Positions 18,793 to 34,768 of a DNA stretch of 36,868 nt are shown here, in pieces (position 1 is the first letter of the stretch; each line of letters opens with the position of its first letter). The position numbers and the translations under genes are program-made. The notes beneath the pieces were generated by a model. It had not been told where the DNA came from. It made no database searches and saw only the letters and a program-made list of their open reading frames with translations. Origin of the DNA: Candidatus Omnitrophota bacterium (GTDB taxonomy: Bacteria; Omnitrophota; Gorgyraeia; Aquiviventales; Aquiviventaceae); the NCBI GenBank assembly GCA_016198905.1, contig JACQHR010000034.1:1-36868 (forward strand), in the 5' to 3' direction.

Positions 18793-18807
18793 CACCCTAG
18801 AGTCTCG

Positions 18808-18906
18808 AGAAAGGCAAACCCACGGTGACGTGGGGGCGCAAAGCCGCGGATCCTTTTCTTCAGGACAGCCGGGTTGCCGAAGACATGGCAACCCGGTTCT
18901 TTTTTA
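18808..18906 (+). promoter_or_regulatory. c-di-GMP-I (GEMM) riboswitch with overlapping intrinsic terminator
   Basis: All hallmarks of the class I c-di-GMP aptamer are present. GGCAAACC starts at 18813. The first hairpin is CCCACG-GTGA-CGTGGG (18819-18834) with a GNRA tetraloop. GCAAAGCCGCGG (18838-18849) and the second hairpin with ATCCT/AGGA arms follow, closed by GCCGGGTTGCCGAA (18868-18881). The 3' aptamer strand CCGGGTTGCC (18869-18878) is also the 5' arm of a perfect 10-bp terminator with GGCAACCCGG (18887-18896) and TTCTTTTTT. Aptamer folding and terminator are therefore mutually exclusive, so ligand binding should permit read-through (an ON switch). The only gene downstream is the secreted protein at 19030. 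Confidence 0.93.
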
Positions 18907-33003: not shown

Positions 33004-33008
33004 CGAGT

Positions 33009-33098
33009 GGAGAGGTACCCAAGTGGTTGACGGGAATCGCCTTGAAAGCGATCAGGCCCTGATGAGGGGCCTCGTGGGTTCGAATCCCACCCTCTCCG
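33009..33098 (+). tRNA. tRNA-Ser (UGA)
   Basis: A 90-base class II tRNA. Acceptor strands GGAGAGG and CCTCTCC pair, with discriminator G. The anticodon stem ATCGC/GCGAT encloses CTTGAAA with anticodon TGA. A long variable arm and the T arm GGTTCGAATCC follow. CCA is not encoded. It shares its 3' 30 bases with the tRNA-Ser at 34133. Confidence 0.95.
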
Positions 33099-33117
33099 TT
33101 TTGTCTGAGGATGCCGC

Positions 33118-34179
33118 ATGGCGCGTGTGGCACTAACTGCAGACGAGCAGGTAGCCTTCCTACAGCGTGTGCGGCAGAAGGTTGCTGCAACCCAAGGCCA
33201 TTTGGCTCAGCTGTGTCAGGTGCACCCGCGCACGTTCTCCGATTGGGTGCGGGGGAAGTCCCGGATGAAATACGAACCCTTGCAACGGCTCATCGCGCAT
33301 GCCCAACTGGCACTCGATCGGGAGATTGGGCAAGTGCCAGAGTTCAGCCACGTGCGTGAAGCGGCCCGGTTGGGCGGCCTGCGCAGAGGCCGCTTGTACG
33401 GTAATCCCGGTACACCGGAAGGGCGTCGGAGGGGAGGTCTCGCTTCCATCGCGAAGAGGCGCATGCTTGGGCTGGCCAACGGAGTACCGGATGGATTCAT
33501 GGTTGCCAAAGTCATCAAACAACCGAAGCCTTCTACGGCCCTGGCGGAATTCATGGGCATCATGCTCGGTGACGGCTGTCTGAATAGCACGTTTCAGGCC
33601 GCGCTGTATTTCAACCGGGAAACGGACGAACCGCACGCAACATTTATGGTCAATCTGGCCAACGAACTCTTTGGGATTCGCCCTCACCGATGCGATGATG
33701 CGGATTCCAAGGGCAGCGCCTTGCTCTTCTCCAGCGTCCATCTTGTCCGATATCTGATACACCTTGGATTTGGTCGTGGCGATAAGGTGAAGCAGCAAGC
33801 TGGCGTGCCGTTATGGGTTCTTGAAAACCCAGCATATCGGCGGGCGTGTCTGCGCGGACTCATGGACACCGATGGCTCGATTTACCGTTATGAACATATC
33901 GTCTACGGGAATCGTTACGTCCACCAAGCACTTTGCTTTACGAATCGGTCATATCCGCTCTTGGCGTTTGTTGAAGAGACCTTGAGTGCGAATCGCTACC
34001 ATCCCAGGCGGACGGGTTTTCGCGTGTATTTATACAGGAAGGTTGAAATCGCGCGATACTTTTCGGATATCGGGACGCACAATGCCAAACACGAAACACG
34101 GTATCTGCTGTATGCTCAACGACGAGAATCGAGGAGAGGTACCCAAGTGGTTGACGGGGCCGCTCTCGAAAAGCGGTAG
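33118..34179 (+). CDS. LAGLIDADG homing endonuclease-like protein
   Basis: A 353-residue protein with two LAGLIDADG helices: LAEFMGIMLGDG at residues 142-153 and RACLRGLMDTDG at 242-253, each ending in the acidic residue expected at the active site. The N-terminal 60 residues look like a helix-turn-helix (LAQLCQVHPRTFSDWVRG), and VREAARLGGLRRGRLYGNPGTPEGRRRGGL is a recognisable linker of free-standing LAGLIDADG proteins. GAGG precedes ATG 33118 by eight bases. The last residues (RRGTQVVDGAALEKR) and the stop are encoded by the first half of the tRNA-Ser(CGA) gene, so the two genes overlap by 47 bases. It could cut a tRNA-like site or act as a DNA-binding regulator. Confidence 0.85.
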   Translation: MARVALTADEQVAFLQRVRQKVAATQGHLAQLCQVHPRTFSDWVRGKSRMKYEPLQRLIAHAQLALDREIGQVPEFSHVREAARLGGLRRGRLYGNPGTPEGRRRGGLASIAKRRMLGLANGVPDGFMVAKVIKQPKPSTALAEFMGIMLGDGCLNSTFQAALYFNRETDEPHATFMVNLANELFGIRPHRCDDADSKGSALLFSSVHLVRYLIHLGFGRGDKVKQQAGVPLWVLENPAYRRACLRGLMDTDGSIYRYEHIVYGNRYVHQALCFTNRSYPLLAFVEETLSANRYHPRRTGFRVYLYRKVEIARYFSDIGTHNAKHETRYLLYAQRRESRRGTQVVDGAALEKR

Positions 34180-34219
34180 GGCCGCAAGGCCCTCGTGGGT
34201 TCGAATCCCACCCTCTCCG
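34133..34219 (+). tRNA. tRNA-Ser (CGA)
   Basis: An 87-base class II tRNA. Acceptor GGAGAGG/CCTCTCC with discriminator G. The anticodon stem CCGCT/AGCGG encloses CTCGAAA with anticodon CGA. The 3' end CCTCGTGGGTTCGAATCCCA is shared with tRNA-Ser(UGA), and its last 18 bases are repeated at 34401-34418. The endonuclease gene reads into its 5' half. Confidence 0.94.
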
Positions 34220-34418
34220 TTTCGATTCAAGATCTGCGAGCAAGTGATAGAGTGTCGGTTGGATTTGCACGTGTGGGTGGGATTCGAAGAGAGCCGCGAC
34301 TGTTTTGATAGACGTCGGTGCGACGAGCAGGAGCACCGACTTTCCTTGGGAGCGGCGAGTGGCCGACCCGGAATGAGGCCGAAGGCCGAATGGAGGGCGC
34401 CGAATCCCACCCTCTCCG
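34220..34418 (+). repeat. tRNA-tail repeat unit after tRNA-Ser(CGA)
   Basis: The segment ends with CGAATCCCACCCTCTCCG (34401-34418), an exact copy of the last 18 bases of the tRNA (34202-34219), an offset of 199 bases. It contains a block at 34321-34352 (starting CGACGAGCAGGAGC, ending TTTCCTTGGGAG) that is closely matched after the next tRNA-Ser. The copied tail is followed by the small hairpin CCGC-TTC-GCGG. The region has no convincing gene. Organisation is reminiscent of the tyrT-distal repeats of E. coli. Confidence 0.65.
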
Positions 34419-34455
34419 CCGCTTCGCGGAGTTGCGGGTTCCATGTTCCATGTTC

Positions 34456-34523
34456 CAAGTTCAAGGTTCAATGTTTCGATGACGGCTAGAACATGCAACA
34501 TTGAACTTTGAACGTTGAACTTG
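34456..34523. repeat. Inverted repeat of TTGAAC-type words
   Basis: CAAGTTCAAGGTTCAATGTT (34456-34475) is the near-complement of 34497-34523, which has one extra GTTGAA-like word. Direct copies of GTTCCAT lie just to the left. It could form a long hairpin. A TATAAT at 34526-34531 touches the next tRNA but is too close to be its promoter. Confidence 0.55.
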
Positions 34524-34531
34524 TTTATAAT

Positions 34532-34621
34532 GGAGAGGTGTCTGAGCGGTTGAAAGAGCACGCTTGGAAAGCGTGTAGCTACCCTAAAGGTGGCTCCCGG
34601 GTTCGAATCCCGGCCTCTCCG
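34532..34621 (+). tRNA. tRNA-Ser (GGA)
   Basis: A 90-base class II tRNA. Acceptor GGAGAGG/CCTCTCC with discriminator G. The anticodon stem CACGC/GCGTG encloses TTGGAAA with anticodon GGA. A long variable arm (TAGCTACCCTAAAGGTGGCT) and T arm GGTTCGAATCC follow. Its last 17 bases are repeated at 34752-34768. Confidence 0.95.
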
Positions 34622-34768
34622 GTTTTTCTCTGGTTCCGCCGGGATGCGAAGGGAGGCCCGACGCAAGTGAACGAGCCGCGACGAATAGGAGCGGCGACTT
34701 CCTTGGGAGGGCCGGGCGGCGACCGGAGCGAACGCAGTGAGCGGAGGCGCAGAATCCCGGCCTCTCCG
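34622..34768 (+). repeat. tRNA-tail repeat unit after tRNA-Ser(GGA)
   Basis: The 147-base segment ends with GAATCCCGGCCTCTCCG (34752-34768), an exact copy of the last 17 bases of the preceding tRNA (34605-34621). The block at 34679-34709 (starting CGACGAATAGGAGC, ending CTTCCTTGGGAG) matches 34321-34352 after the other tRNA-Ser at most positions. An inverted CGGAGCGAACGCAGTGAGCGG-like hairpin precedes the tail. The spacing is exactly 49 codons, so the two tails are in one reading frame, but the frame is not a convincing gene. Confidence 0.65.

Follow-up and report, generated by a model that had tools for sequence, protein, structure and literature searches.

Two of the tRNA-Ser genes in the 36,868-nucleotide contig of a Candidatus Omnitrophota bacterium analysed here (JACQHR010000034.1, assembly GCA_016198905.1; hereafter the window) are each followed by a short unit that ends in a copy of the 3' end of its own tRNA, and these units probably belong to a family of RtT-like tRNA-trailer RNA elements that extends across the phylum. 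The tyrT/rtT repeats have so far been an isolated curiosity associated with a small RNA of uncertain role. In another phylum, RtT-like anatomy is now found behind tRNAs for almost every amino acid, in a copy number that suffices to separate the fixed part of the element, its core structure, from the borrowed part, its two ends. A single locus could not demonstrate that the host tRNA sets both ends, and extending the observation from two loci to a phylum-wide family describes a general, testable kind of tRNA-linked element.

Both units in the window follow the order tRNA, spacer, inverted arm (10–14 nt), structured core (100–115 nt) and direct copy (17–18 nt), and in tRNA numbering the distal copy begins at C56, in the T loop. 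The features are as follows:

34133–34219, + strand: tRNA-Ser(CGA), host of unit 1, with its tail (positions 56–73) at 34202–34219 (ARAGORN, Rfam RF00005).
34220–34276, + strand: spacer of unit 1, 57 nt (from the sequence and the measured distance).
34277–34286, + strand: left (inverted) arm of unit 1, GTGGGATTCG, which can pair with both the tRNA tail and the distal copy (from the sequence).
34287–34400, + strand: core of unit 1, comprising hairpins P2 and P3 with tandem G.A motifs and a variable hairpin.
34401–34418, + strand: distal copy of the tRNA-Ser(CGA) 3' end, 18/18 identical, followed by CC.
34531–34622, + strand: tRNA-Ser(GGA), host of unit 2, with its tail (positions 56–73) at 34604–34621 (ARAGORN, Rfam RF00005).
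34623–34638, + strand: spacer of unit 2, 16 nt (from the sequence).
34639–34648, + strand: left (inverted) arm of unit 2, CCGGGATGCG, a GCG variant that gives a G.A pair at position 58.
34649–34750, + strand: core of unit 2.
34751–34768, + strand: distal copy of the tRNA-Ser(GGA) 3' end, 17/18 identical (C56 is A), followed by CCA.

The first-pass annotation had reported exact repeats of the two tRNA ends at distances of 199 and 147 bases, each fitting its own tRNA, and these are real: the 18-nt CGAATCCCACCCTCTCCG of tRNA-Ser(CGA) at 34202–34219 recurs exactly at 34401–34418, an offset of 199 bases, and the 17-nt GAATCCCGGCCTCTCCG of tRNA-Ser(GGA) recurs at 34752–34768, an offset of 147 bases. 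The block that it described as common to both units is equally genuine, with relatives 73–88% identical elsewhere in the same genome. Beyond what had been noted, each copy starts at C56, an inverted tail copy opens each unit (in unit 1 the exact inverted match to the tRNA tail covers 34275–34288, GGGTGGGATTCGAA), and there is no unit behind tRNA-Ser(TGA) at 33008–33099. The copy in unit 2 is followed by CCA, yet the tRNA-Ser(GGA) gene itself has none. Tandem repetition of the unit does not occur in the window.

BLAST with unit 2 and its tRNA recovered relatives from the window's own genome and from many others of the family, standing behind Arg, Gln, Ala, Leu, Met, Gly, Pro, Glu, Val, Thr and Ser tRNAs and each ending in a 16–25-nt copy of the 3' end of its own tRNA. 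From 27 units aligned from arm to copy we built a covariance model, R1, whose scan is itself blind to tRNA genes and whose ends carry a T-loop consensus because the training units were picked near tRNAs. R1 matched unit 1 at 34277–34410 (115.9 bits) and unit 2 at 34639–34760 (112.7 bits), and gave 9 strong matches in the window's own genome and about 82 in 17 of the 27 genomes of the family. Matches were present in 75 of 293 genomes of the class and in 83 of 384 sampled Omnitrophota genomes, some of these outside the class. None of 194 Verrucomicrobiota genomes had a match, one misbinned contig aside. This 3.1-kb contig (L146, JAHFTH010000273.1), filed as Lacunisphaera, bears two units and four tRNAs; it is probably a misbinned Omnitrophota contig, as it alone matches and no other Verrucomicrobiota genome does.

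The link to tRNA genes held throughout. All of the first 82 R1 matches have an upstream tRNA on the same strand, mostly at 9–60 nt, and most of those at a greater distance are second units in tandem arrays; 50 of 50 distant matches likewise stand behind a tRNA; nearly all matches in these two sets carry their own tail copies. Exceptions in a third set were contig edges or tRNA tails missed by ARAGORN. In total, 170 distinct copies, preceded by a same-strand tRNA but for a few such cases, stand behind 41 anticodon types. The arrangement that would have severed the link to tRNAs, a block standing away from tRNA genes without tail copies, was looked for and not encountered: plain DNA searches of the window's own genome found no core away from a tRNA, and neither these searches nor the R1 sets gave a confirmed match elsewhere or any intergenic scatter. 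A chance repeat is ruled out by 170 distinct units of the same pattern across many genomes, with the distal copy identical over all 18 nt in 125 of 163 units. A Dyadobacter pattern match was discarded, having neither a tRNA nor a model match. Carriage of the core by phages or plasmids was also rejected, since the unit pattern was not found in viral contigs, BLAST of phages with the core was empty, and the plasmid matches listed were confined to tRNA bodies.

The two ends of a unit follow the host tRNA. Each unit starts with an inverted copy of the 3' side of the tRNA T arm, at about positions 56–65, and ends with a direct copy of positions 56–73, usually continuing through CCA where the gene encodes CCA. 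The arm is complementary to its own tail at positions 56–65, and the variable position 59 is paired in 100% of units, as against only 40% when the tail is taken from another tRNA. Among 115 unoccupied tRNAs few are followed by such an inverted arm, so the arm arrives with the unit, and the idea that all tRNAs of these genomes carry one was rejected. Some arms complement nearly the whole tail, over 17–19 nt (L143, L129, L202).

The cores, by contrast with the ends, follow the genome. Of 72 cores, 28 had their nearest neighbour within their own genome (7.8 expected) and only 2 within the same isoacceptor (2.1 expected). The clearest example is a genome with about 22 units (G020), in which the units of tRNA-Trp and tRNA-Thr(GGU) have cores that are 98% identical while the arm and copy of each are those of the tRNA in front of it. 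Likeness of cores within a genome, together with ends that fit the local tRNA, suggests that cores spread or are converted inside one genome and that their ends are rewritten to fit. A CCA stands behind the copy of a CCA-less tRNA gene in 9 of 98 cases; this could reflect copying from mature tRNA, and a displaced genomic CCA explains it equally well.

Two further cores were observed. G020 contains a second, unrelated core (GAACCCTGAAGGGGTGCGGGG...) behind tRNA-Ser and tRNA-Arg (L051, 3037–3300, 4729–4990 and 5668–5930), with the same architecture except that the copy begins at T54 or earlier. A third core type (GATTCGAAGCGAGYGARCGCCG..., L038 and L043) lies behind tRNA-Ser in other families of the class and has a tail copy and an inverted arm.

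Arm and copy together form P1, the closing helix of a conserved, covarying structure. Across 124 units, 95% of pair cells are standard compared with 30–48% when the partners are slid, in a covariance-model alignment that is biased towards the structure used to make it, and two-sided changes occur in 28 of 31 pairs. Among pair cells, G.T outnumbers A.C (66 versus 27), and the antisense strand folds worse than the sense strand. The innermost triplet of the arm is TCG or TTG and, one misaligned row aside, is replaced only by GAG or GCG, both of which give sheared G.A pairs. The covariation and the bias of G.U over A.C indicate that selection acts on an RNA of the tRNA-sense strand. Many units are situated within tRNA clusters, where a further tRNA follows after a short distance, which makes co-transcription very probable.

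Folding of the tRNA together with its unit complicates this picture, in that the thermodynamic fold does not favour the arm:copy helix but places the arm on the tRNA's own tail (0.70) and the acceptor strand on the copy (0.95), and in-silico removal of the copy does not restore the T stem. Wherever the proximal and distal tails disagree, it is always the proximal one that pairs with the tRNA body (957/959 as against 947/959). Because it is the proximal tail that the tRNA uses, either co-transcriptional folding wins or the competition is itself the point. The latter would suit a host-made, cis-acting pre-tRNA switch, in which the arm rests either on its own tail, blocking the tRNA, or on the copy, freeing it, while the core senses a signal that decides between the two. 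The complementarity of the arm to both tail and copy, the joint change of all three in several orthologous pairs (see below), the competition seen in full-length folding and a copy kept by purifying maintenance would all agree with such a device. We nevertheless regard it as unlikely: one core behind 41 anticodon types, with patchy occurrence, tandem and decayed copies and genome-wise homogeneity, resembles a repeat more than a regulator, and in-silico removal of the copy did not lower tRNA folding further. The same deletion gave no support to the copy as an antidote that restores tRNA folding.

The known system that the units resemble most closely is RtT RNA (RF00391), and the suggestion of the first-pass annotation that they are tRNA-distal repeats like those of tyrT has proved the best fit, as the rtT units of Enterobacterales share the anatomy. 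Both kinds of unit lie directly behind a tRNA (on the same strand in Omnitrophota), end in an 18–19-nt copy of the host tRNA's 3' end, have an inverted arm complementary to that copy and occur in tandem arrays, the latter in several relatives within Omnitrophota. In E. coli, the RtT of tyrT/tyrV has a 19-nt tail copy and an inverted arm, GGGGAAGGAT, that is followed by GAGAAG, the GAG being a variant also found in Omnitrophota arms, and the 3' end of the annotated 171-nt RttR coincides with the CCA of the copy. RtT units behind tRNA-Pro (Salmonella, Klebsiella, E. coli) and tRNA-Lys (Providencia) carry the copy and arm of their own tRNA. In the RtT units tested here, too, the host tRNA sets the ends. 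In the literature covered, which did not extend to the 1991 description of rtT RNA, we saw no mention of RtT arms matching the host tRNA. Expression of RtT RNAs close to tRNA-Asn and tRNA-Lys has been reported in Pasteurellaceae from Northern blots (PMC4986893), and in RtT a tandem G.A is reported to be framed by a helix that covaries (PMC8250186).

The two differ in where the copy starts, at A58 in RtT and at C56 in Omnitrophota, in core sequence and hairpin layout, and in range, the Omnitrophota units standing behind 41 anticodon types whereas RtT was measured behind tRNA-Tyr, -Pro and -Lys. The Omnitrophota unit matched no family in Rfam, and the Rfam RtT model gave no match to these units at E up to 10, while RtT loci score 95–138 bits. 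R1 ranks RtT copies first in their own loci, weakly, at 6–22 bits (best 21.7), part of which comes from complementary arms alone. RtT and the Omnitrophota units have the same architecture and probably the same way of working; as one sequence family they are a candidate only, the architecture being what they share.

We propose that the unit would be transcribed as a 3' trailer of the pre-tRNA and that tRNA 3'-end processing may cut at the end of the tRNA and at the end of the copy, releasing the unit as a small stable RNA comparable to E. coli RttR. Cutting at both ends would be possible because tRNA and copy terminate in an identical acceptor sequence, and release of a trailer RNA by 3' processing is favoured by this mimicry and by the fact that RttR ends there. 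A new unit would arise when a core is copied behind another tRNA gene and both arms are rewritten from the local tRNA, which would thereby remain intact; alternatively, the ends may later be homogenised to the tRNA by gene conversion and inverted-repeat correction. Tandem duplication would then give arrays whose distal units decay. On this basis we tentatively put forward a phylum-spanning class of mobile RNA elements, comprising the Omnitrophota family, the Enterobacterales RtT and the further cores, that may move between tRNA genes and have their closing helix and 3' end rebuilt each time from the host tRNA. Direct tests of how the ends are written, of RNA release and of the effect on the tRNA are possible in E. 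coli K-12.

Orthologous units, traced by their spacers among the 12 genomes of genus g42, show how the ends behave through time. Spacers had diverged by 17%, compared with 1.3% between the copy and its own tRNA. Where the T arm had changed in tRNA-Lys, -Leu and -Gly, the tRNA, arm and copy had mostly changed together, in several pairs, with a few G.U intermediates. Empty loci in relatives, for which the first-pass annotation had advised looking, are present and show that units are lost or gained: G225 has no unit at the Tyr site where G134, G044 and G119 have one, and at Leu(UAG) a unit is present in G006 but not in G018 or G014. Apparent empty-site pairs at Gly(CCC) and Gly(GCC) were left uncounted, as the flank is itself a repeat. 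The patchy distribution, the tandem arrays, the empty sites and the likeness of cores within genomes together suggest that the units are mobile, although ancient presence followed by gene conversion and loss would give the same picture. In the same genus (L232, L236, L240, L255), the CCA of a tRNA or tail copy can be followed by a different repeat (TGAACCACTCGCTAAG...TTCGCTCGGGTTCATGG).

Occupied and empty sites, a direct repeat of about 18–21 bp from C56 to the tRNA end that would be a target-site duplication, tandem arrays and the many copies in some genomes (G020 above) are also what a MITE-like non-autonomous DNA element would leave, its arms being terminal inverted repeats and the RNA structure a palindrome by-product. 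We consider this quite improbable, as a transposon's terminal inverted repeats are fixed by its transposase and common to its copies, whereas the arms of the units differ from tRNA to tRNA and match the local one; the bias of G.T over A.C and the sheared G.A replacements point to RNA, and viral contigs and phages gave no matches. The first-pass annotation had likewise entertained a small non-autonomous element at tRNA-Ser ends, a proposal of which the specificity for tRNA-Ser fell away with the 41 anticodon types, and for which integration is at most a candidate mechanism. Integrative elements at tRNA 3' ends do share with the units an insert flanked by a direct repeat of the tRNA 3' end that leaves the tRNA whole. 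Unlike them, however, the Omnitrophota units (100–200 nt) hold no integrase or any other gene, and one core with conserved RNA structure stands behind dissimilar tRNAs with its ends refitted. The units are short, repeated, GC-rich hairpins like REP/BIME, and some RtT-similar elements of Enterobacteria sit in BIMEs (PMC2965389), but they are not scattered through intergenic regions.

Rewriting of both ends could in principle be achieved by a bacterial SINE, whose core RNA would enter by target-primed reverse transcription at C56 followed by snap-back second-strand synthesis that yields the inverted arm. A single step would then account for both arms coming from the target and for the right junction at C56, and the arms that complement nearly the whole tail would fit. 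Reverse transcriptase PF00078 is nearly absent from the family, however, being present in 1 of its 27 genomes (incomplete MAGs), G012, which has no detected unit, and in none of the unit-rich ones, G020 included; retroposition was rejected on this ground and such a route is very unlikely. Least credible is an intron-like T-loop insert between positions 55 and 56, with the distal copy as the true 3' exon and the proximal tail as part of the insert, for despite the exact 55/56 boundary and minimum-energy folds in which the distal copy pairs with the 5' acceptor strand of the tRNA, the better pairing of the proximal tail at the discordant sites rules out the copy as a real exon, tRNAs with a distal match only were not found as a class, and Rfam found no group I/II intron catalytic core or other known ribozyme core in the units.

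Several other features of the window were recorded. Between tRNA-Ser(TGA) and tRNA-Ser(CGA) lies a LAGLIDADG-like gene of 353 aa with an XRE-type helix-turn-helix (33118–34179), the 3' end of which overlaps the tRNA-Ser(CGA) gene by 47 nt. The two tRNA genes that flank it are identical over their first 26 nt (33009–33034 and 34133–34158) and have the same tail. Homologues of the gene occur in 20 of 147 genomes of the class, with a tRNA-Ser close by in 11 of 12 loci checked, mostly directly behind the gene, and it is perhaps a tRNA-Ser-linked homing endonuclease. As a mobiliser of the units it was rejected, since its homologues lie mostly beside tRNA-Ser and several genomes in the same family carry units yet have no homologue. 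Between unit 1 and tRNA-Ser(GGA), GTTCAA-type repeats form an imperfect palindrome with 27-nt arms (34449–34523), and similar GTTCAA-like stretches also follow units in L046, L140 and L142. Finally, a c-di-GMP-I-GGC riboswitch aptamer is found at 18804–18882 (69.4 bits).
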